From positions 26,623 through 90,622 of IMG/VR virus record IMGVR_UViG_3300009164_000054: a stretch of 64,000 bases of DNA, one strand, 5' to 3'. The notes beneath the pieces are model-generated. The model was not told the origin of the DNA. It worked only from the letters and a program-made list of their open reading frames with translations, and ran no database searches. This document shows positions 16,918-64,000 of the stretch, in pieces. Each line of letters begins with the position of its first letter. Position 1 is the stretch's first letter. The DNA is from a virus. Both the position numbers and the translations under genes were made by a program.

Positions 16918-17250
16918 ATGGCAGTAAAGAAAACTACATACATAACAACGGAACTCAATTGGGCAGAAGAACAGTTATCAAGCTGGAAACAATACGTTGA
17001 TGCTAATCCTTTACATACATTAGAGGATAGAATCAAATGGAAAGAAACTAAAGCTGGTGGTGCTATGCCTATGGTGATTGCCTCTATCGAGGCTCAAGGT
17101 AAGTTTGTACAAGAGACAATGAAGAACTATCTAGCTCTCTTAGAACAAGTAGAAAAGCTCAGAGAGAAAGAAGAAGCTAAAGCAGTACCTATAAGAGGTG
17201 GTGCTGAGCTTGGAAGTATGGCAGAAGAGTTTTTAAAAGGTAGAAAATAA
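16918..17250 (+). CDS. putative terminase small subunit-like protein, 110 aa
   Basis: Predominantly helical (LNWAEEQLSSWKQYVDANP, then VQETMKNYLALLEQVEKLREKEEAK), ending GGAELGSMAEEFLKGRK. Its TAA shares one base with the TerL ATG (TAATG), so the two are translationally coupled. A small terminase role rests on position, size and helical content; there is no diagnostic motif. Confidence 0.55.
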   Translation: MAVKKTTYITTELNWAEEQLSSWKQYVDANPLHTLEDRIKWKETKAGGAMPMVIASIEAQGKFVQETMKNYLALLEQVEKLREKEEAKAVPIRGGAELGSMAEEFLKGRK

Positions 17251-19274
17251 TGGATGGACTACAAAGTATTGACTACAAGGATTGGTTCATCAATCAAAAG
17301 AGAGTTCCTCAGAAAGACTCAGATGAGTATAAAGCGTTCTATGCCTATCATAAACAACTATGCATTGATGGTTGTACAATGGGAGGAGTATATATCAATC
17401 CTTTTTTATATTGGCATTTAAACTTCTGGAATACAGAAGTAGATATAATAGATGAACGTGGAAGAATATCACAGAAATATGCTAATCCATATTTACGTGA
17501 TAATGAATGGGTTATTACAAATGAAATAGATAGAGCACAAATAGAAAAGAAAGGCCTAGTTATACTGGGCATTCGTCGTTTGGCTAAGTCAGTAATTGAG
17601 AGCAGTTATATAGGTTGGGGAGCTACATTTGATGAGAACTCCCAGAACATTATAGCAGGATTGAATGCTCCCGATATAAAGCTTATCACAGATAAGATTG
17701 ACAAAGGATTAAACTTTCTACCAGAAGCATGGAGATGGCAGAGGGTTGAGGATAATTGGAAAAACCAAGTTACTTTAGGGATCAAGACAAAAGCAGGAGA
17801 GCGAATCCCCTTTTCTCAGATCCTTATTCGTAACTTAGATGGTGGTAATAACGAGGAAGCAATTGCAGGTACTAAACCTAGAAAATTAATTATTGATGAG
17901 ATTGGTAAAGGAAGTTTCCTTAGAGGACTACAAGCTGCAACTCCAGGTTTTACTACACCATATGGTTGGGGATGTAGCCCTATCCTTACAGGTACTGGAG
18001 GAGATATGCAGAATTTTATGGATGCTAAGTCTCTTATGTTCGATGTAGAGAATTTCAACTTCCTTACATATAATAACGCTAAAGATGATAAACGAGTACA
18101 TGGGCTATTCATATCCCATAAGTACAGAATGGAAGCTAAAGAAGAATCCACATTAGGAGCATACCTTGAACAACCAGCAGATTCTGAATTACACAATGTA
18201 AAGATGCTAGTCTCTAATGAAGAGAAAGCAGATAAGATTACAAATGATAACCTTGACAGATTAAAAAAAGCTGGTGATAGACTAGCTTATTTAAAAGAGA
18301 AGATGTATTACCCACAAGAAGTGGATGATATATTCTTGAATGAGGACACAAATATATTTGATATAGAAGCTACCAAACGTCAGAAGGCTAGACTACTAGC
18401 ACAAGAAAGAACAGGAACCCCTGTTGTTCTTTATGATGATGGTAATGGTGTAAAGCATGAGTTTACAGACAAATTACCTATATCAAACTTCCCTCTTAAG
18501 AATAGTGATAACAAAGAAGCTCCTGTAGTGATATATGAGTTTCCAATAGAGAGTCCTCCTTATGGATTATATGTAGCAGGGATTGACCCTTATAGACAGG
18601 GCAAGTCTGCTTATTCAAGTTCATTAGGATCTGTGTATATATACAAACGTATGCACAGTATATCAGGAGAGAAGTATCAAGATATGTTTGTTGCTAGCTA
18701 TTGTGCTAGACCAGAGAAGAAAGAAACCTGGGAAGAACAAGCACGTTACCTGATTAAATATTACAATGCAAGAGCTCTATGTGAGAATGACGAAATATCT
18801 TTTATTGACTACATGATAGCTAAAGGAGATGCTCATTACCTAGAAAGACAACCTGATTGGTTAAAGGAAATAGTTCCAAATACTACCGTAAGACGAGACT
18901 ATGGAATACATAGATCTTCTGAGAAAATTAGAGACTTTTTACATGGCTGCCTTAAAAAATATTCAGAAGAAGTTATACATACAGAGAAAGATGAAGATGG
19001 AAACATTAAATCTGAAACAAAAGGTATGTCTAAAATATTTGATCCTGTTCTCCTCGAGGAGATGATACAATATAATGAGACAGGTAACTTTGATAGAATC
19101 ATTGCAGCAGAACTAGCAATAGCTCTAGCAATGAAACTAGATCCCATAATGGGAAAAATAGGAGGAGAGCAAGATGTAAGAATGCAATCAATGTTCACAA
19201 AGAACAAAAAGAATACTCTGTTTACACAAAGCAGATCAATGTTTAACACACCAAAAAATAAATTGTTTAGATAA
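17250..19274 (+). CDS. terL: terminase large subunit (TerL)
   Basis: 674 residues. N-terminal ATPase: a Walker A-like segment VILGIRRLAKSV near residues 104-115 (phage TerL-type, R-rich rather than GxxxxGK), a Walker B segment KLIIDEIGKGSF near residue 212. C-terminal RNase H-type nuclease: YVAGIDPYRQGKS near residue 440 supplies the first catalytic Asp, CENDEISFIDYM near residue 512, and a later Asp in the helix near residue 630. It cuts and pumps concatemeric DNA through the portal encoded next. Confidence 0.93.
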   Translation: MDGLQSIDYKDWFINQKRVPQKDSDEYKAFYAYHKQLCIDGCTMGGVYINPFLYWHLNFWNTEVDIIDERGRISQKYANPYLRDNEWVITNEIDRAQIEKKGLVILGIRRLAKSVIESSYIGWGATFDENSQNIIAGLNAPDIKLITDKIDKGLNFLPEAWRWQRVEDNWKNQVTLGIKTKAGERIPFSQILIRNLDGGNNEEAIAGTKPRKLIIDEIGKGSFLRGLQAATPGFTTPYGWGCSPILTGTGGDMQNFMDAKSLMFDVENFNFLTYNNAKDDKRVHGLFISHKYRMEAKEESTLGAYLEQPADSELHNVKMLVSNEEKADKITNDNLDRLKKAGDRLAYLKEKMYYPQEVDDIFLNEDTNIFDIEATKRQKARLLAQERTGTPVVLYDDGNGVKHEFTDKLPISNFPLKNSDNKEAPVVIYEFPIESPPYGLYVAGIDPYRQGKSAYSSSLGSVYIYKRMHSISGEKYQDMFVASYCARPEKKETWEEQARYLIKYYNARALCENDEISFIDYMIAKGDAHYLERQPDWLKEIVPNTTVRRDYGIHRSSEKIRDFLHGCLKKYSEEVIHTEKDEDGNIKSETKGMSKIFDPVLLEEMIQYNETGNFDRIIAAELAIALAMKLDPIMGKIGGEQDVRMQSMFTKNKKNTLFTQSRSMFNTPKNKLFR

Positions 19275-26111: not shown

Positions 26112-26843
26112 ATGATCCCAGTAGATAGTTTATTATATAAAGTAGATCAAAGACTAAATAAACTATCAACTAATGAGCACCAACAGATTCAATTAGAAGA
26201 TAAGATTTTAGCTTTGAACGAAGCTCAGATTAAGTTGATAAAACAAAAGATTGATGGTATTAGTATTGCTAGTGGATTAGGAATGGATTCTTTTAAAAAG
26301 CGTTACGAAGATTTACAAAGTCTTGTAATGAATTATAATCACCAACCTTTAACATTAACATTAAAAGATCGTGATTTAAATCAATGGGCTGCTAATATTC
26401 ATTTACTTGAACCTAAGTATATGTTTTATGTTGACAGTTATGCATTAGCTGATAAAGGAAGATGTAAAGATAGAAAGATATGGATTAACCGAGATCTTGC
26501 TAAACATGGTGATCTTCAATTCATATTAAACAATGAGCATTACAAACCTTCATTTGAATACCAAGAAACATTTAACTTCTTAGCATCAGATGAAATCTCA
26601 ATCTTTACTGATGGTACCTTTACCCCTAAGAATCTACAAATAATGTATATGAGATATCCTCTTTATATTAATAAAACAGGATATATAATGTTAGATGGTA
26701 ATCCATCATTTGATCAAGACTGTGAACTTGAGACATACTTAGAAGATGAACTTCTAGATCTTACAGTTCAGAATCTAGCAATGTATACTGAGAATGCTGC
26801 TGCAGTACAAAGTGCACAGTTCAGAATACAAACAAACGAGTAA
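26112..26843 (+). CDS. hypothetical structural protein, 243 aa
   Basis: MIPVDSLLYKVDQRLNKLSTNEHQQIQLEDKILALNEAQIKLIKQKI gives a helical start; the middle contains ...DRDLNQWAANIHLLEPKYMFYVDSYALADKG... and the end is acidic (LETYLEDELLDLTVQNLAMYTENAAAVQSAQ). This 'N-terminal helix pair, strands, C-terminal YLEDELLDLTVQ helix' layout recurs in crAss-like head-tail connector proteins, so a connector role is plausible. No enzymatic motif. Confidence 0.62.
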   Translation: MIPVDSLLYKVDQRLNKLSTNEHQQIQLEDKILALNEAQIKLIKQKIDGISIASGLGMDSFKKRYEDLQSLVMNYNHQPLTLTLKDRDLNQWAANIHLLEPKYMFYVDSYALADKGRCKDRKIWINRDLAKHGDLQFILNNEHYKPSFEYQETFNFLASDEISIFTDGTFTPKNLQIMYMRYPLYINKTGYIMLDGNPSFDQDCELETYLEDELLDLTVQNLAMYTENAAAVQSAQFRIQTNE

Positions 26844-33353: not shown

Positions 33354-36300
33354 ATGAATAACTTAGCATTCCAAATATACGGAACAAAAAAAGCAGCTCC
33401 CTTTCAATCTGTCTGGAAGACAGATACTGCTGTTACAGTTAGTACAACAGAACTAGCTAATACAGCAGCAACAACACCACTGCCATCAGGGTGGAGTGGA
33501 ACTAATCTGTTGACAGGTGGATACACTCACACTGCAGGAAATACAGCTGTGTTACTAGTTAATAATTTAACACCTACTGCAGGACAGAGTTATCAAATCG
33601 TATGCACACTTTCAGCAGGATCAACAGGTTCAGTTATAATAAACTTTGGAGGAGTGTCCAGTGCTTCATTAACTGCTACCACTACAACAATCCTAACTCC
33701 AATAAATGCAGCAATTAAGTTATCAATTACTCCATCAAATGACTTTGTTGGAACTGTATCGCTAAGTGTAAAACAGAGTTCGTCAGCACTTAATCAAATA
33801 CAGCTACCAATAACTCTTGCCTCTGGAAAATCAGTATGGATAGACTGGGGAGATGGTCAGTATAGCACTGCAAACAGCACTAATATTATTCCAAATAGAA
33901 TACACACGTATACAACACCAGGAGAGTATCCAGTAAGGGTATTTGGAGATGACTTCAGTTTTGGATTTGGAAGTCCAAATCAGGTTACTAATGATAGATT
34001 AAAAATAAAGTCTATATCTAGTTGGGGCAAATTAAAAATGGGGTCATCTTCTTTTTTTGGTTGTTCTAATGTAACCATGTCTGGAATAACTGATATTCCT
34101 GATTTAATTGGAGTAACTAACTTATCAAATGCATTTAATACTTGTTCTAACTTAACTACTGTTGGTAGAATGAATGAATGGAATATGAGTAGTGTTACTA
34201 ACCTACTTGGAATGTTTAGCAATTCAGGTAATTTTAATCAATGTATAGGTGGTTGGAATTTATCTAGTGTTACTACTTTTGAAGGAATGTTTTATAATTG
34301 TTTGGAATTTAACAATGGAGATAACAGCACACCATTAAATAATTGGATATTAAATACAACATCATCAGTGTCATTAAACTATCCATTTATTAATTGTAGA
34401 AAATTCAATAGATACATAGGTGATTGGAATACATCTAAAGTGAATATAATGGCAGACATGTTTCAAGGAGCTACAGTATTCAATAATGGATTTGCTGCTG
34501 GTGTTGGAACAGGAAACCAATTAAATTGGGATACATCTTCTTGTACTAATATGAGTAGAATGTTTGTAAGTGCTCCTGCATTTAACTCTAATGTATCATC
34601 ATTTAATGTATCTAAAGTTACAACATTTAATCAAATGTTTACTTATTGTAATGCATTTAATAATGGATTTGCATCTGGAGATGGAGTAGGAAATCAATTA
34701 CCTTGGAATATAGGTGGTAATGTAACAGGTACAATTAGTATGGAAGGTATATTTTCTTATGCTCCTGCATTTAATTCTAACTTAGGAACAGGGACAACAC
34801 CATGGGATGTTAGTAAGGTGACAACATTTGCAAGTATGTTTAATGGAGCATCTAAGTTTAGAAATGGTGATGATACAGCTCCTATAAATAATTGGAATAT
34901 AGGAGGAAGTGTAACATCAGTTACTTTAACTAGTATGTTTGCTAGTGCATCTGTTTTCAACAGAGATATTAGTAGTTGGAATGTAAGTAAGGCGACTAGT
35001 ACTAGTGGTATGTTTTCTTTTGCTTCTGCCTTTAATCAACCTATTGGGAATTGGGAAAGAAGTACAGTAGGGAATGTATCTACAATGGGCAATATTACTA
35101 ATATGGGTAACATGTTCCAATATAGCTTAGCATTTAATCAAGATATTAATCTATGGAATGTAAATAAGGTGACATCATTTTATCAAATGTTCCAAGGGGC
35201 TAGAGATTTTAATAAAAATATTGGAGATTGGGATATAAATACTTTAGCAACATCAGTTGATATGACTGCTATGTTTTGGGTTGCCCCTAATTTCAATCAA
35301 GATATTAGTAAGTGGAACGTATCTAAAGTAACAGCATTTGTAAAAATGTTTGCTGGTGCTACTGCCTTTAATAATGGAGACAATAATCAAGAGAATCCAA
35401 TAACTTTTAGAATTGGTATAAATGGATGGAACATAAATACCGCTGCAACATCAGTTAGTATGTTTGATATGTTTAATGGTGCTTCTGCTTTTAATCGACT
35501 TATTGACTCTTGGAATGTAAGTAAGGTGACAAATATGGTAAGTATGTTTGAAAATGCTAGAGCATTTAATCAACCTCTTGCTGGATGGGAAAGAATTACA
35601 CCAGATGTTTCTAGTTTAAGTAATGTTACCACTATGAGTAAGATGTTTTATCAAGCTTTCTTATTCAATCAACCTATTGGAAATTGGAATGTGAGTAATG
35701 TGACTGATATGAGTAATATGTTTGCTGGCTTTTTTAATGTTGGTTTTACTACTTTTAACCAAGACATTAGTAACTGGAATGTTAGCAATGTTACTACTAT
35801 GGCTAGTATGTTTACATATAATAATGCATTTAATCAGGCAATAAGTGGTTGGAATGTGCCCAAAGTTAATAGTTTCGCAAGCATGTTTAATACGAGCAGA
35901 TACAACCAACCATTAAACTTGTTGAATATTGGTGGAGATTCTTCAGTAACAACAATAAATATGGCTTCTATGTTTCAGCGAAATGGTTATTTTAATCAAG
36001 ACATAAGTATGTGGAATGTACCTAAGGTGACTAATATGTCTAATATGTTTTATAATGACTCGGCACCAGTTAGCACATTCAACCAACCTATAGGTTCTTG
36101 GGATGTGAGTAATGTTACTAATATGTCTAGTATGTTTACTGGTGCTAAAGCCTTCAACCAGCCTATTGGTTCTTGGGATGTGAGTAAAGTAACTAATATG
36201 TCTTCTATGTTTTCTAACCTATTCACCAATGCTAGTTCTATGGACTTTAACCAAGACATAGGTTCATGGAATATAAGTAATGTTACTAGCTTTGCTAATT

Positions 36301-36719
36301 TTATGGCAGGAAAAACACCAGCTACATTCTCATCAACTAACCTAGATGCTATATATAATGGATGGAGTGCATTACCAAGTGTTAAACCAAATATATCAAT
36401 AAGTTTTGGATCTGCTAAGTATTCACAAGTTGGTAAACCAGGGAAAGATACATTATTAACAAGTCCGAATAATTGGACAATAGCAGATGGTTTATTAACA
36501 GTTTCTGGTACATCAAATAACGGAGGACTAATTAGAGTGACAACAACTGCTGCTCATGGATTTACAACAGGAAATTCAGTTTATATATATGGAGTTAATG
36601 GAACAACAAATGCAAATGGAACATGGACAGTTACAGTAGTAAACACTACAGTAATAGAACTTCAAGGAAGTGCATACAACGCAGCATGGACTAGTGGTGG
36701 AAATGTAATATTAGGATAA
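33354..36719 (+). CDS. BspA-type (DUF285) repeat receptor-binding protein, 1121 aa
   Basis: N-terminal domain to about residue 150, then a PKD-like module with DWGDGQYS and RIHTYTTPGEYPVRVFGDD near residues 162-200. About twenty repeats of the DUF285/BspA type follow, each near FNxxIGxWDVSxVTxMxxMF. A C-terminal strand module contains AAHGFTTGNSVYIYGVNGTTNANG. Such repeats are found in surface proteins of Bacteroidota and mycoplasmas. In a virion they would make a long curved fibre that contacts a surface ligand. Repeats in the last third are nearly identical in DNA. Confidence 0.85.
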   Translation: MNNLAFQIYGTKKAAPFQSVWKTDTAVTVSTTELANTAATTPLPSGWSGTNLLTGGYTHTAGNTAVLLVNNLTPTAGQSYQIVCTLSAGSTGSVIINFGGVSSASLTATTTTILTPINAAIKLSITPSNDFVGTVSLSVKQSSSALNQIQLPITLASGKSVWIDWGDGQYSTANSTNIIPNRIHTYTTPGEYPVRVFGDDFSFGFGSPNQVTNDRLKIKSISSWGKLKMGSSSFFGCSNVTMSGITDIPDLIGVTNLSNAFNTCSNLTTVGRMNEWNMSSVTNLLGMFSNSGNFNQCIGGWNLSSVTTFEGMFYNCLEFNNGDNSTPLNNWILNTTSSVSLNYPFINCRKFNRYIGDWNTSKVNIMADMFQGATVFNNGFAAGVGTGNQLNWDTSSCTNMSRMFVSAPAFNSNVSSFNVSKVTTFNQMFTYCNAFNNGFASGDGVGNQLPWNIGGNVTGTISMEGIFSYAPAFNSNLGTGTTPWDVSKVTTFASMFNGASKFRNGDDTAPINNWNIGGSVTSVTLTSMFASASVFNRDISSWNVSKATSTSGMFSFASAFNQPIGNWERSTVGNVSTMGNITNMGNMFQYSLAFNQDINLWNVNKVTSFYQMFQGARDFNKNIGDWDINTLATSVDMTAMFWVAPNFNQDISKWNVSKVTAFVKMFAGATAFNNGDNNQENPITFRIGINGWNINTAATSVSMFDMFNGASAFNRLIDSWNVSKVTNMVSMFENARAFNQPLAGWERITPDVSSLSNVTTMSKMFYQAFLFNQPIGNWNVSNVTDMSNMFAGFFNVGFTTFNQDISNWNVSNVTTMASMFTYNNAFNQAISGWNVPKVNSFASMFNTSRYNQPLNLLNIGGDSSVTTINMASMFQRNGYFNQDISMWNVPKVTNMSNMFYNDSAPVSTFNQPIGSWDVSNVTNMSSMFTGAKAFNQPIGSWDVSKVTNMSSMFSNLFTNASSMDFNQDIGSWNISNVTSFANFMAGKTPATFSSTNLDAIYNGWSALPSVKPNISISFGSAKYSQVGKPGKDTLLTSPNNWTIADGLLTVSGTSNNGGLIRVTTTAAHGFTTGNSVYIYGVNGTTNANGTWTVTVVNTTVIELQGSAYNAAWTSGGNVILG
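34200..36330 (+). repeat. tandem DUF285 coding repeats
   Basis: Roughly 60-100-base units repeat in frame through this span. Units near 36080-36140 and 36150-36210 are nearly identical (both contain TTCTTGGGATGTGAGTAA), indicating recent duplication by unequal recombination. Earlier units are more divergent. Confidence 0.8.
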
Positions 36720-36737
36720 TAAATCAAATAAAATAAA

Positions 36738-37958
36738 ATGACAGTATTAATAACATTAACAACAGCAGGTGCAGACACAGGACCATTTAATCTCTATTCA
36801 GATGTTAATGGATATGCGTATGCATTTGTATTAAACGTAACCAAACAACAACTAACTGATGGTTATCCATCTGATATAGTTCCTGATGGTACAACCATAA
36901 TCAAAGTTCAATCTGTTAATAGTTTATGTAATAATTTTACATTATTAAATGTTCCACCACCACCACCAACCACTACCACTACATCTAGCACTTCTACCAG
37001 TACAAGCACTAGTACCAGCACTAGTACCAGTACTAGTACAAGCACTTCTACATCAACAAGTACCAGTACTTCTACTAGCACTAGTACATCAACATCTACA
37101 TCAACATCTACATCAACAAGCACTACTACTAGTACTACTACTGCTACACCATGTACTCTTAGTATACTTTCTACATTAACTACAGATCCTGACAATCAAG
37201 CAGGAAATAATGGAACAGCAACAATAGTATTTCAAGGAGGAACTGCACCATTTACATATACATTAAATTCTGTAGCGCAAGGAGCTGCAATTTCTCCATT
37301 AGTTATTAATGGACTATCGGCATTAACATCTTACACTGTTGAAATAATAGATTCAAATCTATGTAATGATACTACAACATTTACATTAGGAGAAAGTACA
37401 TTCTATTTTGATGCAGATTATATAATGTTAACGTATGAATTTACAGATGGTCGAGATCTTGATACAAAAACTAGAATGGCTATTCCTAATATAGGACAAA
37501 ATAGTCCAGTTGATTATTTAGGATACCTTGATCCAGATACTGTTTTTCAATGGCCACCACTTTCTGCATCTCCTATATTAGCTTTTGGTGGTGATAATCT
37601 TGGAACTGGGTTTGAATCTATTTTAATAGACATTAACGAATTTAAAATAGATTATCCATCAGCAACTAGTTTTACTGTAGATGCTAGATGTTTGTGGTTT
37701 GTACCTGATGAAATAGGAATAAATCCTGTAAATGTAGCTGCTACATTGTGGAAGGGTGGGACACCTGTACAAGATGGATGTGATGGTTTTTGTTGGACAA
37801 ATCCAACAGCAACTAATACAGGTAGTATAGATTCTGTTGGTATTGTAATTACAAGTACTGATCGGACTAGAGGTCAAAGAGCTGCAACATTAACATATAA
37901 CTTAGTAACAAAGATAGGTATATTAAATAATAATGATACAACAACACCTGTTGTTTAA
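36738..37958 (+). CDS. anchor-domain fibre protein with Ser/Thr repeat stalk, 406 aa
   Basis: Residues 1-75 (LITLTTAGADTGPFNLYSD...PDGTTIIKVQSVN.LC) are an N-terminal anchor domain shared with the next two genes and with the 49861 gene. A long stalk of Thr/Ser (TS)n follows (about residues 75-135). A strand-rich outer part starts at PCTLSILSTLT, with an Ig-like segment (NNGTATIVFQGGTAPFTYTL). It is probably a tail-attached receptor-binding protein in which a flexible stalk holds the outer domain away from the virion. Confidence 0.78.
   Translation: MTVLITLTTAGADTGPFNLYSDVNGYAYAFVLNVTKQQLTDGYPSDIVPDGTTIIKVQSVNSLCNNFTLLNVPPPPPTTTTTSSTSTSTSTSTSTSTSTSTSTSTSTSTSTSTSTSTSTSTSTSTSTSTTTSTTTATPCTLSILSTLTTDPDNQAGNNGTATIVFQGGTAPFTYTLNSVAQGAAISPLVINGLSALTSYTVEIIDSNLCNDTTTFTLGESTFYFDADYIMLTYEFTDGRDLDTKTRMAIPNIGQNSPVDYLGYLDPDTVFQWPPLSASPILAFGGDNLGTGFESILIDINEFKIDYPSATSFTVDARCLWFVPDEIGINPVNVAATLWKGGTPVQDGCDGFCWTNPTATNTGSIDSVGIVITSTDRTRGQRAATLTYNLVTKIGILNNNDTTTPVV
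36955..37150 (+). repeat. ACTAGTACCAGC-type microsatellite encoding a Thr/Ser stalk
   Basis: About 195 bases of degenerate 3- and 6-base repeats (ACTAGTACC, ACATCAACA, CTACTAGT) that encode (TS)n. Similar but shorter tracts occur at about 38205-38225, 38605-38715, 28000-28050, 29110-29180 and 49140-49200. These tracts are likely sites of length change and of recombination between fibre genes. Confidence 0.8.
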
Positions 37959-37974
37959 TATAATATAAAACCAA

Positions 37975-39309
37975 ATGAATTTACTTATAACATTAACAAG
38001 CGCAGGTCTTAATTCTGGACCATTTAATTTGTATTCAGATACTGATAATTATTTTACAGCATTTGAATCTGATGTACCTAAACAAGATTTATTAGATGGC
38101 TATATATCCACTCTAATTCCTGATGGGACAACAATAGTTAGAGTGATATCTGATAATCCTTTATGTACTAATTATGCAGATTTATCTATAGTTGTTCCTA
38201 CTACAACAACTACCACTACAATAGCAGCTACTTATTGCGTAAACTGGACAGCATCAAATGAAGGAAACATAAAAATGTCTACTCAAGGGTATATTGATTT
38301 TACAGCAATATTAGCTGGAAGAACTATAGCAACTGGACTTTCTACAGGAACAATTATTGGATATATAGTTGCTGGTGTTGGAACATTTACTTGTTCTATT
38401 CCTATGACATTTACTACATCTAAAGCAGAATGGGATACAGACACACTTCCTGCAGTTGAAGATAACGTGCTAACTTCTTTAGTATACAATGTAGAAGTGG
38501 TGTTTAATAATTCTGATGAGTATTCAATAGTTGCTGGACAAACAAATGCAGTTGTAATTCCTGGACAATTAACTTCAGAATATAATGATTGTCCTGTGCC
38601 TACAACTACTACAACATCATCAAGTAGTAGTAGTACATCAACCTCGACATCAACATCAACATCTACAAGTACAACTAGCACTAGTAGTTCAACAACAACT
38701 ACTACCACTACAGTAATACCTACTATACTTATTTGTGATCAAATATGGACTACTATAAACCTTGATGTAACCACATACAGAGATGGTACGGTTATACCTG
38801 AAGTAACTGACGCAGAGGAGTGGGGTGACTTGACAACAGGTGCTTGGTGCTATTATGAAAACAATACAGCAAATGGTCCTATATATGGTAAATTGTACAA
38901 TTGGTATGCTGTTGCAGGAATTGACGGTAGTGGAATACCAAGGAGTTTAGCTCCTGCAGGTTATCACGTACCTTCAGATGCCGAATGGACAACTTTAACC
39001 AATACTTGTTTAGGTGGTGAAGCTATTGCGGGAGGACCAATGAAGGAAACAGGATTTTCACATTGGAGTAGTCCTAATACAAACGCTACTAATAGTAGTG
39101 GTTTTACAGGTCTTCCAGGTGGATATCGTGAGGATGTTGGAGCATTAGACTTTGTAGGTATTAATGAGCTTGGTATGTGGTGGAGTTCTACAGAAGACAA
39201 TATTGGTTCAAGCTCCTTTTTCCGCTTCCTGTCTCACACCTCTGGTGTAGCATACCGCATCAGTTATCCTCAAGGTTACGGTTACTCAGTAAGATTAATA
39301 CAAGATTAA
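37975..39309 (+). CDS. anchor-domain fibre protein ending in a FISUMP (DGR-type) domain, 444 aa
   Basis: The shared anchor domain (LITLTSAGLNSGPFNLYSD, residues 3-21) leads into two Thr-rich linkers (about residues 75-85 and 213-245) around an Ig-like segment. From about residue 250 is a Fibrobacter-succinogenes-major-type (FISUMP) domain: QIWTTINLDVTTYRDG, LYNWYAVAG, GYHVPSDAEWTTL, GLPGGYRED, WWSSTED. This fold is a common target of diversity-generating retroelements. The final codons (39208-39285) are dominated by NNC/NNT and are markedly C-rich in an AT-rich genome. A receptor-binding protein with a variable tip is inferred. Confidence 0.82.
   Translation: MNLLITLTSAGLNSGPFNLYSDTDNYFTAFESDVPKQDLLDGYISTLIPDGTTIVRVISDNPLCTNYADLSIVVPTTTTTTTIAATYCVNWTASNEGNIKMSTQGYIDFTAILAGRTIATGLSTGTIIGYIVAGVGTFTCSIPMTFTTSKAEWDTDTLPAVEDNVLTSLVYNVEVVFNNSDEYSIVAGQTNAVVIPGQLTSEYNDCPVPTTTTTSSSSSSTSTSTSTSTSTSTTSTSSSTTTTTTTVIPTILICDQIWTTINLDVTTYRDGTVIPEVTDAEEWGDLTTGAWCYYENNTANGPIYGKLYNWYAVAGIDGSGIPRSLAPAGYHVPSDAEWTTLTNTCLGGEAIAGGPMKETGFSHWSSPNTNATNSSGFTGLPGGYREDVGALDFVGINELGMWWSSTEDNIGSSSFFRFLSHTSGVAYRISYPQGYGYSVRLIQD
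39208..39285 (+). other. candidate DGR variable region (VR)
   Basis: In frame, the codons run AGC TCC TTT TTC CGC TTC, then CTG TCT CAC ACC TCT, then TAC CGC ATC AGT TAT CCT. Nearly all variable positions end in C or T, as expected when AAY codons in a template repeat are adenine-mutagenised. No template repeat or reverse transcriptase is seen in the window. Confidence 0.55.
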
Positions 39310-39325
39310 TAAAAAATAAAACCAA

Positions 39326-40993
39326 ATGATAATATTTTTAACATTAACAACCGCTGGATCTGATTCAGGTCCATTCAATCTTTACTCTGACTCAGATGGA
39401 TATACAATTCCATTTGACACAGATGTATTTAAATATTCATTAGAAGCAGGATATTCAACAACTGCACCAGATGGTACACAAGTTGTCAAAGTTGTATCTA
39501 CAGGAGTTTGTATCAATTCTACATATATAACACTAGCATTGCCAGATTGTATATTAGCTGGATATCTTGAAACTGTACTTAATGCTACATCAGTTACTTT
39601 TATTACAAATGAAGATACTAATTTCACTATACAATTATTAGGAGAAGCAGGGAATCCTAATCCAGATTATATAATAACATCTTTGCCTAACACTTTACAA
39701 GGAGATATATATGATCCAGGTACAGGTTTAAAAATAACAACTGTGCCATATACATTAGTTAGTTCTGGAACAACGGTATTATTTGATCCTGCAGAACATT
39801 ATTTTGGAAATGTTGATTCATTTAATTTTCAATTATTTCAAGATTTATATTATAGTAATGTAGCTACAGTGACAGGACTAGTGTTAGCAGTTAACGATTC
39901 TCCTATATTTGATCAACTTGCACCATTGTATGATGGATTACCTGGAGGAACCTATACATACACAGGCACAGTGTCTGATCCAGATAATCCACTTCTTCCA
40001 TTAGTTGTAACTTTTGTACCAACAGTGTTGATGCCTAATTTGCCTTCAGGATGGACACTTGTTCAAACTCCTGGTACTAATCAATTCACGCTTACAGGAC
40101 CTGTTCCTTCTGGTGCAGATTATTCTATAACCTTACAAGTATCCGATGGAATCCTAGTGACCCAACAGTTAGTTACCGTTAATTCAGTATATTCTACATT
40201 GGCTAGCATGGAGTTTAAAGTTAATTATAGAGCTGCTGTAGCTCCTTCAGGAGTGGCACAGTCTCCTGAAACAACAGGTAATGGTATTACAATATCTACA
40301 TCTGCAATAAATGGTGGCCATGTTTGTAATAGAGCACAATTTAATTTAGTTGCAGGAATATATGCAGATGTAAATAGTGGTCAGTGGCAATGGTCAGACT
40401 TAGGTAAAGCAAATTTAAACAACAATGGTGTTAACCCTGTTCCTTTTAATCCTGGTGTGTCTGCTTACAATTTATTTGATAATAGAATTTCACAAGCAGC
40501 AGATCTTGCTTATGGAACTGCAGTAGACCCATCTTGGGTAAATGTTGCGGCTGGAATGGGATTAGATCCAGGAGCAGCTGGTAGACCAGTTAAAATTTAT
40601 GATGCTGGAAATCCATTAACATTTTATAATGTTTACGCTGTTAATACTGAGCCATCCTCTGCTGATAGAACAACTTATTTTAAAATATCAAATGCTATAG
40701 CTACAAGTTTAGCAACTGAATCAAATTGGGGAGGTTCTTCTAATATTAATAGAGGAGTAGTTAAATTTAAGTTAGTATCAAATAATTATACTCCTGCTGG
40801 TATACACAATCCTCACTCAGGAAATTTTGGATGGTTACAAGTGTTTAAGAGCAATAATAATTCACAAGCTTTAAATCAAGAAGAAGTTTTAGTTAATGGT
40901 GCAAGTTTTATTATGACTGGACAGGTTGGTGTTGGAAATGTAACAATAACAGTTAACATATTAACTAATCAAGTATCAGTAGCTAGTGAGTAG
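39326..40993 (+). CDS. anchor-domain fibre protein with cadherin-like modules, 555 aa
   Basis: Residues 1-75 (LTLTTAGSDSGPFNLYSDSDGY...PDGTQVVKVVSTGVC) are again the shared anchor. The middle contains Ig/cadherin-like segments (DPAEHYFGNVDSFNFQL and AVNDSPIFDQL, then GTYTYTGTVSDPDNP...YSITLQVSDGILV). The C-terminal 250 residues are a distinct beta-rich domain, perhaps the binding tip. There is no Thr stalk here. It ends a fibre operon closed by a strong terminator. Confidence 0.78.
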   Translation: MIIFLTLTTAGSDSGPFNLYSDSDGYTIPFDTDVFKYSLEAGYSTTAPDGTQVVKVVSTGVCINSTYITLALPDCILAGYLETVLNATSVTFITNEDTNFTIQLLGEAGNPNPDYIITSLPNTLQGDIYDPGTGLKITTVPYTLVSSGTTVLFDPAEHYFGNVDSFNFQLFQDLYYSNVATVTGLVLAVNDSPIFDQLAPLYDGLPGGTYTYTGTVSDPDNPLLPLVVTFVPTVLMPNLPSGWTLVQTPGTNQFTLTGPVPSGADYSITLQVSDGILVTQQLVTVNSVYSTLASMEFKVNYRAAVAPSGVAQSPETTGNGITISTSAINGGHVCNRAQFNLVAGIYADVNSGQWQWSDLGKANLNNNGVNPVPFNPGVSAYNLFDNRISQAADLAYGTAVDPSWVNVAAGMGLDPGAAGRPVKIYDAGNPLTFYNVYAVNTEPSSADRTTYFKISNAIATSLATESNWGGSSNINRGVVKFKLVSNNYTPAGIHNPHSGNFGWLQVFKSNNNSQALNQEEVLVNGASFIMTGQVGVGNVTITVNILTNQVSVASE

Positions 40994-44604: not shown

Positions 44605-47600
44605 ATGGCTGAAGAACAATCACAAGGAAATATAAAACAAGAACTTAACAGTGCTAACATAGGGTTAAACCTAGATAGCACATTAAATCAGATTAAACAG
44701 GGCACACTTACGTATGCCTTAAATGCTGCTTTAGAAAACTTTGATGCTTCTTCTGTCAACTATCAGAATGAACAAGGAAATGAACTATGTGTTACATTTC
44801 CTAAAGAATACGTATTAATAGGAACACATTTTATTAATGAACAAAGTAAACATATATTCTTCATCACCAATCCTAACACAGGAGCTAGTGAGATAGGATA
44901 TATGGATAACAATGATTGCGTCTATCATACATTAGTTAGTGCTCTATGTCTTAACTTCAATGTAGATCATCCTATACACAAAGCAGTACATAAGATTACT
45001 AATTGTACAACAGAGATATATTGGACAGATGGATTCAATCCTAGAAGATATTTAGATTTAAATGATATTCCATATATATTAAAAAGTGGATCCCTTCTTT
45101 GTGATCCTAAATATACAGATGAATTAGATTGTAATCAATTAAAACTACAACCTAATTTTAACATTCCAAGTCTTTCTATTGTAGACATTACTACAGGAGG
45201 TTCTCTTCTTGCTGGTACATATCAGTTTGCAGCACAGTATTCTGATGCTGTAGGTAATCCTTTCACTTCTTATTACTCTATTACCAATCCTACACCAATT
45301 GCTGATCCACAGATTGCAACAGTTAACTTTAACTATGTTGTAGGAAAGTCTATTGTTGTTGATGTAAGTAACTTAGATTCTTCTGGACAGTTTCAATATT
45401 TCAATCTAGCTGTAATTAAAACAGTTAATGCAATTACATCTGTAGAATTAATTGGAACATATTTTATAGATAACACATCTATAAATATAACTTACACAGG
45501 ACAGATAAATGATAACATTCGTTTATCAATGAATGATATATTTGAGAAGTTTCCATATTATGATGTAGCAGAAGATTTAACAGCTGTGCAGGATGTTCTT
45601 GTATGGGATGGACTTACATCTATAGATAGAATTAATTATCAATCTATAGCTACGCAAATAGATCTGTTGTGGGAAACATATGAAATTCCTCCAAATGAAA
45701 ACTATGCAAATGAATTAAATGCTACAAACCTTAGAGGATATCTTCGTGATGAAGTGTATGCATTTGAAATTGTATTCTTATTAAAGAATGGAAAACAAAC
45801 AGATGGTTTTCATATTCCTGGTAGAACATTAACTTCTGACGACACACTTCTTCCAAATATTTATACTAGTAATCCAGATTTTATTGGTGAACCAGAACCA
45901 GACACAGACTACAGTCCTTATTGGAAAATATATAATACAGCTACAGATCTTGGTCCAGGTACTGGTCAGCCTATTGGTAATGCTGTTCCACATAGATATG
46001 GATACTTTGCATATTGGGAATCAACAGAAACGTATCCATGTAATGCAGATCTTTGGGGAGACTTAGCTGATCAACCAATTAGACATCATAAATTTCCAGA
46101 TGTATTAGTTAGTCCTATTACACGACCAGCTATAATATATGATCCTTCATTAGGATTATCTAGACAAAATAATTATGTATATCCAATAGGAGTTAAAATA
46201 GATACAGCACAAGTCTACGATTTAATAGATACATCAAAATTAACAGCAGATCAAAAAGCTGATATAGTAGGATATAAAATAGTAAGAGGGGATAGAGGAA
46301 CAAATAAATCTATTGTAGCAAAAGGTATTCTTCGTAATGTAGGAGAATATACAAGAGAAAACCAAGCTTTTTATTTTCCTAACTATCCGTATAATGATAT
46401 TACTGAAGATCCATTTCTTAATGCAAACAATAATGCTTGGTCAGATTTATGTGAAAGATTTATAATAAATGTATTAAAGCTACCTTCAAAAACAGCACTT
46501 GGTGTACCTTGTTTAACAATAAGATATGTAAGTTGTGATAGTAATAAAGAATCAAATGAGGAATTTACAACAACAGGTATTCATTATATTTGCTCTATAG
46601 GTAAACCAACTATAACAAGTCCTGGTGTAACTAATACAATTGATTATAGTCGTGGATGTAATCCAGTACCAAATATATCTAATTCAAGTTGTATAGGTAC
46701 AGTTAGTTATGCTGATTATGATGTGTATAAAATAAGATCAGGAAATCATTGTGGATGGCCTGGTTTACAATGTTCTGGTTGGGGAGCAGAATGGGATGAT
46801 CCAATTTCTGGACCAGGTGCATATGTATGGATGAAACCAGGTAATAGTTATTGTATACGTGTTAAAAAAGATCAAAGCCCTTATAGAGTAAGTGGTTCTA
46901 GTAAGTGCGGTTGTAATGACATTTCTTTACAATCTACAGTGAGAGATACATCTTGTGGAGCTGTTGCACCACTCACTCCTATATCAAATAATCCTTCTAG
47001 TACGTATAGACAAATATTTAATTCTCCAGAAACTTCTTTTGGTCAACCATTCTTAGGAGATATTCTTAAACTAGAGAATGTAATGTTTGGTGCTGGTAAA
47101 GCACATTTTGTACCAGTTAAAAGTAATGCTAAATATAGACTTCTTTCTAAAGAAGCACAACAAGACGCTCTTGCTAGTTCCAATAGATTAGCTGCTTATA
47201 CAAATCCATTTAATTCCACTGCTATGTGGACAGCATATCAAGCATACTTACAAATATATATAAATGGTATAACTAGAAGAAACTATGCTTATTCATTTAA
47301 CTCTACAGCTAGTTATGATTATAATGCAGAGATAACTAATAGTGGAGACAAACAAAGAACATTAGATATTAAAAGATATTTAATTCCAGGAGTACAAAAT
47401 GTAGGTGATGATCGCAATGTGAATAACTATCAAAGAGAATCTTCTGTTTATTTAAAAACAGATGATGCAAAAGCTTCATTACCATTCCCTAGTAATAGTA
47501 CAGAGATGGCTAGTATAGGAATCAAAGATAGATCCAGACTCACTATAGGTGGTAGTGGTAGATGTGCTACTCCTGCAAGAGAACAAGATATAACTGTTGT

Positions 47601-58227: not shown

Positions 58228-61200
58228 ATGCCAATTTTTGATAATGAACTTATAGATAATACTTCTAATAGAAACTATGAACAACCTAAAGTAGATCTTA
58301 GGTCAATTGTTTTACCAGAAGTTGATACTAATCCTAACATGGGTGGATTTGAAAGTTATAATCAAGTTCCAGCTAAGAGAGGTCTCACTGTAGATGAAAT
58401 ATCAGAAATGAGTAGAGGTGTAAGAGACTCTACTGGTTGGGATTCTCCTATTGAGTTAGTTTCTAAAGGTGAATTATTATCAAATAAACGTTATCCAATG
58501 TTTCAAAGAGATGTAGATCTTGAGAACATATATGGATTACAACAATCTTGGTACAGTAAACTTGGACGCAGTCTTGTTAAGACAGGAGTAACTGCAGCAG
58601 GTACATTTGCACAATCTCTTACTGATATTCCTAATACAATCTCTGCAATAAAGAATGGTAGCATGTCTAAACTTGCTGGAGATCCAAATGGATATGAAGG
58701 TGGTATAGATAGTTGGATGAAAAATATGGAAGATATTATTCCTAACTATATGACAAGGGAAGAAAAAGCTCATCCATATTTAGCAATGATTCCATTTGCT
58801 CCAGGATCTGCAAACTTCTGGGGAGAATCAGTTCTTAAAAACTTAGGATTTACAGCTGGTGCAATTGCTGGAGCAGCTTTGCAAGATATTGCAATTGGTG
58901 CAGTTACAGAAGGTATAGGAGAACTTCCACTAGTAGCTAATCAAATTGGTAAAGCTGCCCTATGGCTTAATAAACTTGCAGGAGGGACTAATAAAATTGA
59001 AACTGTTCTAGATTTAGCAAAAGGATTAGGTAAAACAGAACAACAACTTTTAAAACTTGAGAAGTTAGGAAATTTAGCACAGTCTGCTAAAGTATTGAAT
59101 GGTGCAAGATATGGTATTATTAGTTGGGGAGCTGCACAAACAGAAGCTGGTGTTGAAGCTAGAGATGGGTATAGACATGTTAAAGAAGAATTAATTCAAC
59201 AATATAAAGATGGGCATTTTGGTGAAGAACCAATAGGACAAGATCTTCAAGAAATAGAAGACTATTCTACTAATGCAATGAATACTAGATTTGGTATTAA
59301 CATGGCATTACTAACTGTATCAAATGCTGTGCAGTTTGGAAATTTATTTAAATCATTCACTACAGCACAAAAAGGTATTACAGGAACTCTTGCAAAAGAA
59401 CTTGGAACTGCTGGTAAAATAGGTCTTAAAGAAGGAAGCATTGATGTATTTGAAAAGAAAGCTGCAACTGGTCTTGGTGGTAGAATATGGGACTCTGTTA
59501 AACCTAAACTAGCTAATGTATTATCTGAAGGTGTATATGAAGAAGGTGGACAGTTTGCTGCTGAAAGAGGAACATATGATTACTATACAAGAAAATATAA
59601 AAACCTTAGCAATCCAAATAATAAAAAGAACTGGGATGACTTAAATGAGATTACTAGTTCTACTACTTATGGATTATCTGAACAGTTCAATACTACTGAA
59701 GGTGTTAACAATATGATTGTTGGTGGTCTTACAGCTGTATTAACAGGAGGAGCACAACAGTTTTATGATTATAAAAAAGGAAATGGTGCAGACAAACGTT
59801 TAACCTCTTCTATTAATACACTTAATAGATATGGACTAACAGGAATTCTTTCTGATAAATATGATAATACATTAAGCTCTATGGCTATTGCAAAAGAAAT
59901 GCAAGCTGCAGCTGATAGTGGAAATGTATTCAAATATAAAAACTTAAAGCATGATATGTTTTTTAATTATGTACAATCTCGTATTCCATCAGGAATGCAT
60001 GATGTAACAATTGAACAATTAAACATGTTGAAAGATCTTAACAAAGAAGATTTTGAAAAGTCTTTTGGTATGGACTTCAATGCGTCTAATCAAAATACAG
60101 TTGCTGGATATGTAGATTCTTTGATTGAGAAAGCTAATTATATTAAATCAACTACAGAAGCTATTAATGGTACATTTAAAAATCCATTTGCATATAATGT
60201 AGATCCAAAGAATGAAGAAGAGGCTACTGAATCTTTTAATCATGCTACATTTGAAAATTGGAAAAAAGATCTTACATACTATGGAACAGTTAAAGATGAT
60301 GTAAATGATAGACTTGAGTCCATAGAACAAAAAGTGATTGCAGCTAACCCACTTATCAATAATGATATACTAGCTAAAGTTACAGATAAAGATTCATTAA
60401 CTGAACTATCTAGATCTTATGAAGAACAAGCTAATAGATTAAATGGAACTATTAATGAGAACACTACCACTGCTGATAGAAAAGCTATAAGAGAGCAAAT
60501 AAAAGCTTTACGTACAAGTTCTGAAAAGATTAACCTAGCTTTAAACAATGGTAATCTAGATTTAAAAACATTCAATTCAATATTAAACTTTGAATTAAAT
60601 AATCAAGATGGTAAAAAAGATGATGTTGTAGGTTTTGAAAATGCAACAGAATTATTCAACTATGGTGCAGATATCAATAAGTTAACCAATCTTAAAAAGA
60701 ATTCTTCAGAGATATTTGATAAACTTTCTTCAGAAGAAGGATTTGATAAATATTTCAAACAAGCAGAAGATATTGCTAAAGAAGAAGTTCCTTTAGAAGA
60801 TTTAGAAAAAGCAGAAACTTCTTTTACATTTGTGAACAAAGAGAAAGTAAAAGAACCACTACAAGTTGATAGAGAGTACGAAATAAAAGCTACAAAGAAA
60901 GCATCCATTAAGAAACTTGCTGATGATAGATATCAAGTAACAAGTCCTGATGGCACTACATCATTTCATAAAACTAAAGAAGAAGCTGCTGAAGAGGCAA
61001 AAGATCTAACTGATGAGAGCAATAACCTATCTAAAGTGAAGGTGTTAGCTTTGAACGAAGATGGTACAGTTAAGGTGGAAGATGTGAATGGTGATATATT
61101 AAACATTGATCCTAAAAGATTAAGTGGTTATAAGAAACTTGAAACAGATCAAGAGAAACTATTAAAGAATAAAGAACAGTTAACCAAAGAACAAACTGAT

Positions 61201-64000
61201 ATAGAAAACAATTCTGGTACAGTGGTTATCACTACAGATACTTCTTTCACTCCTATGGATGAAGCAGGTGCTATTGTAGATGCTAATATATTCTTTCAAT
61301 CAGGTACAACTGAATCAGAAGATTATAATGATCCTACGTTATCTGCACAACATGTAAAGAACTCAAGAGAGTTCTTAAATAACATAGACTCATTACCTAA
61401 TAAAGGTAACATGAGAGCTATTCTTGTGACTCCAGGTCAAGAAGGATTAGTAGGACTAGAAGGACTTGCTAAGTTATCATATGGTAGTTATGATATGTCT
61501 AATGTATTAGATGTTGAGAATGGATTCATAGGTCAAGTATTTATTGTACAAGAGAATGGTAAATCTTATTTTATTGATAAGGATGGTACACCATTGGGAG
61601 AAGTTGGTAAGCAATTGAGTGAGGAAGATATGAAGAAAGTTATCTTCCAAACAATGCGTACTACCAAAACTACTGATAGTAAAGGTAACCCACGTTTCAG
61701 AGGAAAGCAACAAGAATTATTTGAAGCATATAAAAAAGAATACATTAAGTTCAGAGAAGACTTAATTGCTAATCAGGATCAAATGCCTGCACCTTTTGAA
61801 TTCACTGTATCTAGAGGTATCCCAAAAGAGAACACTAATCCAGATGGTACTAAAGAAAGAAATCATGTAGGAGGTATTCTTATTGGTAAAGATAAGATAG
61901 ACTCCCAAGAGAATCTAATTGTTATACCAACAACAGGAAGTATATTCCATAATGGACAAAGTATAAAGTTTCCTGATGGTACACCTGTGTTACAATATGG
62001 TTCTACATTACAATTCTTAAACAACAAGAAGTTTAATACTAAAGAAGCATCCACTATATTTCAAGTGGTAAAAGCTTTTGCTGCAGACACTCTTGCTCAA
62101 TCTGAATCAGGAGCTCCTATCAGACTTAACAGAGACTACAGTGATTACTTACAGAATGTTTTATATTGGAGAGTTGGTCAAACAAAGACTAACAATCAAA
62201 TAAACATTAATACAGCTGCAATGACTATTCAGATAGGAGGGAAAGAATACTCTATGTCTGAAATAGCAAATAATGAAAAAGAGATAGTTGATAACTTAAA
62301 AGAGGCGTTCAATGCAATTAATAATACTACACTTACTAAAAAGTTTGATGAGGAGTTCTTAGAATATACATTAGATAAGAATGGAGAATTAAACAAAGAA
62401 CCAATTGAATGGAAGAACTATCAAACATATTTACTATCAGATAAGAATCCTGATGGATCTGCAAGATCAATAGATAGTACACCATTAACAACATCTGTAG
62501 CTGCACCAACTGCAGACATTCCTTATTCATTCAAACAAAGATATGCTACAGTAGAGAGTATGGGATTATCTATTCCTACTCCTACAGTTGAAGCTCAAGC
62601 TGATGAACCATCAGTTCCTGGTGTTGAGAAGATAGGAGAATACACAATTGGTAATGATACACCTAATACATATAAATTATCAGGAGATCGTCCTGTAAGC
62701 TTTACAGCAGCATATGATGAGAATGGTAAAGTGGCTGTACAAATAGAAAGTAATGAAACAACAAAAGCTATAGCAACTAATAAAACTGCTGATGGTAAAA
62801 AAGTTGTAGATGAAGTTATTATTCCTGCACTTAAAAATATTGCAGTAGAGAAAGAACAAGAATTTGATCTTACTAAGACTGATGAGGAATATGTATTTGA
62901 TTATTTAGCAAACACTATTGCTAGTGATTTACAAAATAAGAAAGATGCACAAGTTCCTGTAGTAGAAGAGGTAGTTGTTGAGGAAGCTCCAATAGTTGAA
63001 GAGAAAAAAGAAATACCTACAGGTGCAGATAGATTTAATGGAGGACCTGCTAATCTTCCTGGGTATAGAGCTGTTGGTGTTGATGGTAAAGAAAGAATGA
63101 CTGATGCAGAATTTCAGTTATTCAAAGCATGGCATGCAGAAAATGCTGCTAATATTCCTTTTGAAGTGGTAGATAATCTTATCACTATGAATAATGGTGA
63201 GAAAGCTTGGGGTGTATTTGAAGATGGTGTAGCTAAATTTGTAAGAGGTGGATTAAGAGGTACAGAGTATCACGAGATCTTTGAAGGTATATATAAAGGA
63301 ATGTTATCTCCTGAAGAACAACAAGCATTGCTTGATGAGTTTAAATCTAATGCAGGTGTATTTACAGATAGACAATCTGGTAAGAAGATAAGCTATGCAG
63401 ATGCTACAGATCTTCAAGCTAAAGAAAGAATAGCAGATGACTTTGCTGATTTTAGAAAAGGAAAACTTCCAGCAAGATCATTAGGAGAAGCTATACGTAA
63501 TTTATTTTCTAGAATACTAAACTTCTTTAAATCATTTGTAACTAATCCTTCATTGAAAGAAGATTTGTTTAAAGCAATTGATACAGGTAAGTTTAAAGAA
63601 AGAACATTAAATAATTCTTATAATGTTTGGCATGCTTCAGATAAACAAATAGATAAATTTATTGCAGAAAATAAAGAAGGTTATTTTTCTAAAGAAAAAG
63701 GGGGATCACCTAAAGCAATATTTTTTACAGCAAATAAAGCCCCTGAAGTTTCTTTTCTTTCTCAAAGAGAATATCAAAAACAATTTTCAGTTACTATGAT
63801 TAACCCTTTAATTGTAAATACAGAAGAAGGCTATTCTAGAGAAAAAGAAAGTTTTAAAAATTTAGTAAATAGAGCTTTAGATAATAATCATGATGGTGTT
63901 ATAGTTAAAAATGTTGATGATAATGGTTTTAATGGAGATATTTATATCTCTCTTGATGCTGCAAAAGTATCAGCATTAGCAGAATATAGAGCTGTAGAAG
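58228..64000 (+). CDS. giant polyvalent virion protein (partial, at least 1924 aa)
   Basis: Open frame from ATG 58228 (MPIFDNELIDNTSNRNYEQP) to the window edge. Visible features: a hydrophobic Ala/Gly-rich segment near residues 205-235 (GFTAGAIAGAALQDIAIGAV); long acidic/helical stretches near 640-1000; a metallopeptidase-like YHEIFEGIYKGMLSPEEQ near residue 1680, where HExxH has become HEIFE; and, from about residue 1797, VWHASDKQIDKF...FFTANKAPE...DGVIVKNVDD, resembling the phage ADP-ribosyltransferase-like domain of polyvalent proteins. crAss-like phages carry such giants, some with virion RNA polymerase domains; none was seen in this part. C-terminus is outside the window. Confidence 0.8.
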   Translation, partial: MPIFDNELIDNTSNRNYEQPKVDLRSIVLPEVDTNPNMGGFESYNQVPAKRGLTVDEISEMSRGVRDSTGWDSPIELVSKGELLSNKRYPMFQRDVDLENIYGLQQSWYSKLGRSLVKTGVTAAGTFAQSLTDIPNTISAIKNGSMSKLAGDPNGYEGGIDSWMKNMEDIIPNYMTREEKAHPYLAMIPFAPGSANFWGESVLKNLGFTAGAIAGAALQDIAIGAVTEGIGELPLVANQIGKAALWLNKLAGGTNKIETVLDLAKGLGKTEQQLLKLEKLGNLAQSAKVLNGARYGIISWGAAQTEAGVEARDGYRHVKEELIQQYKDGHFGEEPIGQDLQEIEDYSTNAMNTRFGINMALLTVSNAVQFGNLFKSFTTAQKGITGTLAKELGTAGKIGLKEGSIDVFEKKAATGLGGRIWDSVKPKLANVLSEGVYEEGGQFAAERGTYDYYTRKYKNLSNPNNKKNWDDLNEITSSTTYGLSEQFNTTEGVNNMIVGGLTAVLTGGAQQFYDYKKGNGADKRLTSSINTLNRYGLTGILSDKYDNTLSSMAIAKEMQAAADSGNVFKYKNLKHDMFFNYVQSRIPSGMHDVTIEQLNMLKDLNKEDFEKSFGMDFNASNQNTVAGYVDSLIEKANYIKSTTEAINGTFKNPFAYNVDPKNEEEATESFNHATFENWKKDLTYYGTVKDDVNDRLESIEQKVIAANPLINNDILAKVTDKDSLTELSRSYEEQANRLNGTINENTTTADRKAIREQIKALRTSSEKINLALNNGNLDLKTFNSILNFELNNQDGKKDDVVGFENATELFNYGADINKLTNLKKNSSEIFDKLSSEEGFDKYFKQAEDIAKEEVPLEDLEKAETSFTFVNKEKVKEPLQVDREYEIKATKKASIKKLADDRYQVTSPDGTTSFHKTKEEAAEEAKDLTDESNNLSKVKVLALNEDGTVKVEDVNGDILNIDPKRLSGYKKLETDQEKLLKNKEQLTKEQTDIENNSGTVVITTDTSFTPMDEAGAIVDANIFFQSGTTESEDYNDPTLSAQHVKNSREFLNNIDSLPNKGNMRAILVTPGQEGLVGLEGLAKLSYGSYDMSNVLDVENGFIGQVFIVQENGKSYFIDKDGTPLGEVGKQLSEEDMKKVIFQTMRTTKTTDSKGNPRFRGKQQELFEAYKKEYIKFREDLIANQDQMPAPFEFTVSRGIPKENTNPDGTKERNHVGGILIGKDKIDSQENLIVIPTTGSIFHNGQSIKFPDGTPVLQYGSTLQFLNNKKFNTKEASTIFQVVKAFAADTLAQSESGAPIRLNRDYSDYLQNVLYWRVGQTKTNNQININTAAMTIQIGGKEYSMSEIANNEKEIVDNLKEAFNAINNTTLTKKFDEEFLEYTLDKNGELNKEPIEWKNYQTYLLSDKNPDGSARSIDSTPLTTSVAAPTADIPYSFKQRYATVESMGLSIPTPTVEAQADEPSVPGVEKIGEYTIGNDTPNTYKLSGDRPVSFTAAYDENGKVAVQIESNETTKAIATNKTADGKKVVDEVIIPALKNIAVEKEQEFDLTKTDEEYVFDYLANTIASDLQNKKDAQVPVVEEVVVEEAPIVEEKKEIPTGADRFNGGPANLPGYRAVGVDGKERMTDAEFQLFKAWHAENAANIPFEVVDNLITMNNGEKAWGVFEDGVAKFVRGGLRGTEYHEIFEGIYKGMLSPEEQQALLDEFKSNAGVFTDRQSGKKISYADATDLQAKERIADDFADFRKGKLPARSLGEAIRNLFSRILNFFKSFVTNPSLKEDLFKAIDTGKFKERTLNNSYNVWHASDKQIDKFIAENKEGYFSKEKGGSPKAIFFTANKAPEVSFLSQREYQKQFSVTMINPLIVNTEEGYSREKESFKNLVNRALDNNHDGVIVKNVDDNGFNGDIYISLDAAKVSALAEYRAVE

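Follow-up and report, generated by a model that had tools for sequence, protein, structure and literature searches.

A probable orphan variable repeat of retroelement origin in the FISUMP domain of a putative crAss-like phage fibre

Orphan variable repeats and Fib_succ_major targets of diversity-generating retroelements (DGRs) are both already described. DGR cassettes with Fib_succ_major/DUF1566 targets are known (PMC4159848), and gut crAss-like phages contain incomplete cassettes, with 80 genomes carrying a variable repeat (VR), 30 a template repeat (TR) and 15 the complete cassette (PMC7290462). DGRs acting on remote targets are also on record (PMC8144416), and the Bordetella phage BPP-1 (Mtd/TR/Brt) requires both an IMH and a hairpin (PMC3240598).

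The locus analysed here resembles each of these systems in part. It has in common with the Fib_succ_major/DUF1566 cassettes the Pfam domain and the C-terminal variable loop, and with the Bacteroidota FISUMP DGRs found in this study the NNY scaffold and A-poor codons at conserved residues, but the cassettes have a template and reverse transcriptase (RT) nearby and the phage lacks both, as well as their 3' flank. As in the gut crAss-like phages, a fibre gene carries a variable repeat and no working cassette; there, however, the targeted protein is a tail-collar fibre (T-CFP) and RT genes can be found in truncated form, whereas here it is a FISUMP domain, no remnant is found genome-wide and the phage belongs to a different crAss-like lineage. 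The likeness to BPP-1 lies in a C-terminal variable loop on a phage receptor-binding protein (presumptively so here), yet BPP-1 has RT, TR, IMH and hairpin, none of which was detected in our phage. We regard the loop, with a probability of roughly 0.7, as an orphan DGR-derived variable repeat in a Flavobacterium-like FISUMP module; the repeat would now be static, or else swapped by recombination.

The phage and its fibre gene

The window, the whole 64,000-nucleotide stretch that was analysed, runs from base 26623 to base 90622 of a virus record (IMGVR_UViG_3300009164_000054) that is 90,622 bases long. IMG/VR has the same phage in a second record (G001, 116,993 bases), circularly permuted and identical over the patch described below. 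G001 starts at window position 33441 and stops at 33434, so that its two ends meet inside the window, which bridges them, and the two records together make a closed circle of ~117.0 kb. The large terminase (TerL) shows 31% identity to that of Cellulophaga phi17:2 and 30% to that of csAssE-Sib, and also resembles that of phi4:1. The portal protein is P22-like. Terminase type, portal and a circle of ~117 kb place this environmental phage, as judged from its sequence, among the crAss-like phages (Crassvirales). The closest named phage terminase to TerL (17250-19274) is nevertheless that of Leptolyngbya phage Lbo-JY46 (40%), ahead of those of the Cellulophaga crAss-like phages; the stated host of Lbo-JY46 is cyanobacterial and may deserve checking. 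A giant open reading frame of at least 1924 aa (58228-63999) runs past the window end.

Three tandem genes have a ~70% identical N-terminal module and differ in their C-terminal tips, the layout of a modular fibre array. The middle gene (Table 1) joins this module, common to both neighbours (36738-37958 and 39326-40993, with module copies at 36726-36828 and 39314-39416), through Thr/Ser-rich linkers to a C-terminal FISUMP domain. Directly upstream of the array lies a 1121-aa protein of DUF285 repeats (33354-36719, E 3e-164). The place of the middle gene among tail genes and its modular design suggest a fibre, the FISUMP tip of which would bind the receptor. Its profile match, 123 bits against a curated cut-off of 33.9, puts the domain in PF09603 and so confirms the FISUMP domain named in the earlier note, and all 33 aligned relatives match the same family. 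An AlphaFold2 model of the domain has a pLDDT of 86.6; in fold comparison with the PDB the best matches are C-type lectin-like, at a non-significant E of 0.46, and a PDB sequence search returned no match. The phage has a second FISUMP domain, outside the window (L082 10043-12148; G001 45043-47148), which is N-terminal in a 701-aa protein and 32% identical to the fibre copy; no C-rich patch was seen in it.

Table 1. Features of the putative fibre gene (window positions)
Feature	Position	Strand	Basis or remark
Putative receptor-binding fibre gene, 444 aa	37975..39309	+	ORF list, direct repeat D2, PF09603
N-terminal anchor module, one of three copies	37963..38065	+	repeat family D2, 70-73% identity
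Thr/Ser-rich low-complexity linker, anchor half to FISUMP tip	38599..38712	+	translation, repeat family D1
FISUMP (Fib_succ_major, PF09603) domain	38731..39300	+	hmmscan, residues 253-442, E 2e-35
Candidate DGR-type variable-repeat patch (orphan)	39211..39285	+	top C-ending z, template agreement, scaffold match
Native AT-rich tail, SVRLIQD + stop	39286..39309	+	sits where an IMH-like 3' flank is expected

Codon signature, bacterial counterparts and variation of the patch

C-ending codon choice, given the amino acid, was scored as z in 24-codon windows over the 24 genes of the stretch. The highest value among 12,460 such windows, 5.8, lies at 39211, a maximum that simulated synonymous choice reaches in 1.9% of runs window-wide (P 0.019) and in 0.02% within the fibre gene only (P 2e-4). 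The patch reads AGC TCC TTT TTC CGC TTC CTG TCT CAC ACC TCT GGT GTA GCA TAC CGC ATC AGT TAT CCT CAA GGT TAC GGT TAC. Both its arginines are CGC, which makes up 0.5% of Arg codons elsewhere in the phage, and it holds one CTG, 1.6% of Leu codons elsewhere. The FISUMP domain upstream is unbiased (z -0.25) and the last eight codons, TCA GTA AGA TTA ATA CAA GAT TAA, are native and AT-rich, so the unusual stretch is confined to 39211-39285. The earlier note had called the last ~40 codons C-rich and had taken the dominance of C- or T-ending codons as the sign: the C-bias is real within the last ~33 codons, but it does not extend into the AT-rich tail, and the C-or-T-ending share, 79% in the patch, is reached by 1.7% of windows and climbs to 96% in other genes. 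That fraction is not exceptional and was rejected as evidence; the unusual feature is C.

A degenerate pattern of the patch scaffold, run over species genomes (genome_contigs), found 94 stretches, nearly all in Bacteroidota. Several are AAC-rich template repeats, and a DGR-type RT lies alongside at eight loci. At one of these (L107) the template repeat adjoining the DGR-type RT, CGC AAC CTG AAT TAC AAC AAT GGC AAT GTA AAC AGG AAC AAC AAC AAT AAG, shows, over 132 nt, 19 mismatches to its variable repeat at A and a single one at a non-A position. Such loci thus hold DGR template/variable pairs, on a scaffold of the kind that the phage patch has. Set against the L107 template, the patch itself is the same at 26/39 non-A positions but at only 9/30 A positions (Fisher P 0.0025). 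The conserved Arg and Leu of the scaffold sit in A-poor codons (CGC, CTG). On the other side, agreement with bacterial templates is lower for our patch (0.65) than for other phage copies (up to 0.86). With its NNY scaffold and non-A match the patch falls, as a sequence class, among DGR-type variable repeats, orphans included, and it resembles and probably derives from one. Two expectations of the earlier note, AAY-to-NNY rewriting in FISUMP domains and a patch of variable-repeat type, are thereby borne out by bacterial scaffolds with template and RT alongside.

DGRs with FISUMP templates also occur in Flavobacteriales MAGs; in the MAGs that bear variable repeats several RTs were found, only some of them DGR-type. 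One Flavobacteriaceae genome (G374, L216) has a DGR with a FISUMP target and template that differ at 7 non-A and 14 A positions, its RT being split over two frames and perhaps decaying. In a MAG (G080, that of L162) the FISUMP matches number eight and several are followed by the bacterial 3' flank, while the sole PF00078 match is not DGR-type; these may be orphan or remote-target repeats on a bacterial chromosome, or the MAG may be incomplete. A literature search found no paper combining FISUMP, under that name, with a retroelement.

A C-rich patch is present in about 20 of the 77 viral FISUMP copies analysed. Among 13 C-rich phage copies, differences at codon positions 1/2/3 are.37/.39/.25 in the patch and.25/.22/.41 over the remaining domain, the same inversion as in bacterial DGR repeats (.47/.43/.25 vs.30/.29/.53 elsewhere), and in phage copies without the signature the loop differs at.58/.59/.59. 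Such variation also bears on the view that the patch has no DGR history, being a loop at the protein surface that is subject to diversifying selection and owes its codon bias to ordinary horizontal transfer or chance. This view can draw on a window-wide P of 0.02, which is not extreme, and on those phage FISUMP copies that vary in the loop without being C-rich. It does not readily accommodate the conserved third positions of C-rich copies whose first and second positions vary, Arg and Leu codons that are rare for the phage, the better agreement of non-A than of A template positions, or bacterial template/variable pairs on the same scaffold, and we consider it unlikely, though the least so of the alternatives.

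Two syntenic orthologues (L024/L037), 83% alike here, differ in the patch by 17 first- or second-position changes, of which 14 involve A, and by 2 at third positions. L024 has a patch nearly identical to that of a third phage (L038), despite a domain divergence equal to that of the orthologues (Fisher P 0.03), which suggests on sequence comparison that patches can travel between phages. Near-identical phages from different samples show 0 patch differences, and in a ~1% diverged pair (L016/L017, 80 mismatches in 7.8 kb) the patch is likewise without differences.

Missing retroelement machinery

Neither phage record (G000, G001) has a PF00078 reverse transcriptase, whereas the positive controls BPP-1 and crAssphage LMMB were detected by the PF00078 search. 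A DGR-RT profile run against all reading frames of the phage genome gave a best E of 0.27, against 1e-117 and 1e-195 for controls. RT was not detected in 78 further FISUMP-bearing viral records, an absence that is weaker because about half of them are fragments <30 kb, and it is likewise absent from FISUMP-bearing records near 115-121 kb (G054, which has C-rich patches, and G021). An A-tolerant template scan of the whole phage genome at 30, 40, 50 and 60 nt did no better than a reversed-sequence control, so a template hidden at shorter lengths was rejected too, and a template-repeat pattern had no match in 16 phage records.

At the 3' side, the gene's own tail matches any bacterial template 3' flank at 9-12 of 24 bases, a test that is indirect since the cognate template is not among them. 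Identity to these flanks is 9-14/24 for pattern-matched phage copies and 12-24/24 for bacterial variable repeats; the former all end AT-rich, in AGATTAATA.AAGA.TAA or near it. Downstream of the gene there is only a weak AT hairpin (-3.9 kcal/mol vs -17.2 for BPP-1) and no GC-rich one. Of the parts of a functional DGR cassette, RT, template and 3' IMH with hairpin, none was found, with the IMH judged by this flank comparison.

The earlier note had said that RT and template were not in the window, which is confirmed and extends to the whole ~117 kb genome. It had also proposed to look for both in the rest of the genome, and had named their absence there, together with population reads free of A-directed variability, as what would refute its reading. 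On the genomic side the outcome is the refuting one, for the closed genome has neither; with no bacterial 3' flank and no patch variation among near-identical phages either, a phage DGR that varies its own fibre tip is not supported. A complete cis DGR elsewhere in this genome is in keeping with the DGRs carried by some crAss-like phages (PMC7290462, PMC12386605), but is scarcely credible in a closed circle without RT or template when BPP-1 and crAssphage LMMB were readily recovered; a second replicon aside, an active cis DGR is ruled out.

The machinery might instead act in trans, a DGR of the host or of a co-infecting element, with a phage-scaffold template, rewriting the fibre tip during infection. 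The DGR signature without a cis RT in this phage and in another ~120 kb phage record, the A-involving first- and second-position differences between the two syntenic orthologues, the FISUMP-templated DGRs of Flavobacteriales MAGs and the remote targets noted in PMC8144416 are all compatible with this. However, no template with the phage scaffold was found in viral_contigs or among the genome_contigs pattern matches, of 399 Flavobacteriaceae genomes just one has a related template, the bacterial 3' flank is missing from phage copies where BPP-1 needs IMH and hairpin (PMC3240598), and near-identical phages do not differ in the patch. We hold live diversification in trans to be improbable, and more doubtful still the wider proposition that host-encoded DGRs rewrite the tips of RT-less crAss-like phages, which would keep a matched scaffold for diversifying their own attachment protein. 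With no hypermutation machinery in a complete genome, the patch most likely represents variation that was inherited or borrowed, and not a live mutation target. If no DGR acts on the phages of the syntenic pair, recombination must explain their patch differences.

Origin and significance of the patch

In a tree with the patch left out, the phage domain has its shortest distances to two chromosomal Flavobacterium lipoproteins (L129, which lies near polA, and L158), with phage and bacterial FISUMP copies intermingled; measured as raw nucleotide difference, the closest domains belong to other phages and not to Flavobacterium. Of 81 Flavobacterium genomes, 16 carry a homologue, with identities reaching 62%. 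The module may be of flavobacterial origin. The Flavobacterium copies have a lipoprotein-like context and the bacterial 3' flank CGC TGC GTC AGA GAT (L219, same gene as L129), whereas the phage fibre has the tail AGATTAATACAAGAT in its place. A search for a close donor of exactly this patch came up empty, with the nearest repeats differing at 28/66 bases, and in viral_contigs an A-tolerant pattern of the patch matches only this phage; both points tell against the reading adopted here. Since the patch alone keeps foreign codons, it seems to be younger than the remainder of the domain, and would have been replaced once that had taken on phage codon usage.

An orphan, DGR-derived repeat would have arisen as follows. 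The FISUMP domain is a putative ligand-binding domain of a kind found on flavobacterial chromosomes, where its C-terminal loop would be, or have been, rewritten by a DGR from template AAY to NNY, the conserved Arg and Leu being kept in A-poor CGC and CTG. The patch was presumably acquired together with, or into, a Flavobacterium-like FISUMP module, and the phage would hold the outcome of the process without RT, template or recognisable 3' homing flank. Lacking these three, the loop should be fixed within the genome, and change would probably come from selection and from recombination, the partners being FISUMP copies of other phages or of the host.

If this is right, DGR-made binding loops can occur without the machinery in crAss-like phages beyond the best-studied gut lineages, and DGR counts that go by RT alone would therefore overlook some of the hypervariable fibre pool. 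From sequence, orphan variable repeats could be sought by the inverted codon pattern, in which positions 1 and 2 vary and position 3 is conserved, together with A-poor Arg and Leu codons, and with this signature one could test whether the diversity of such phages is borrowed from their hosts.
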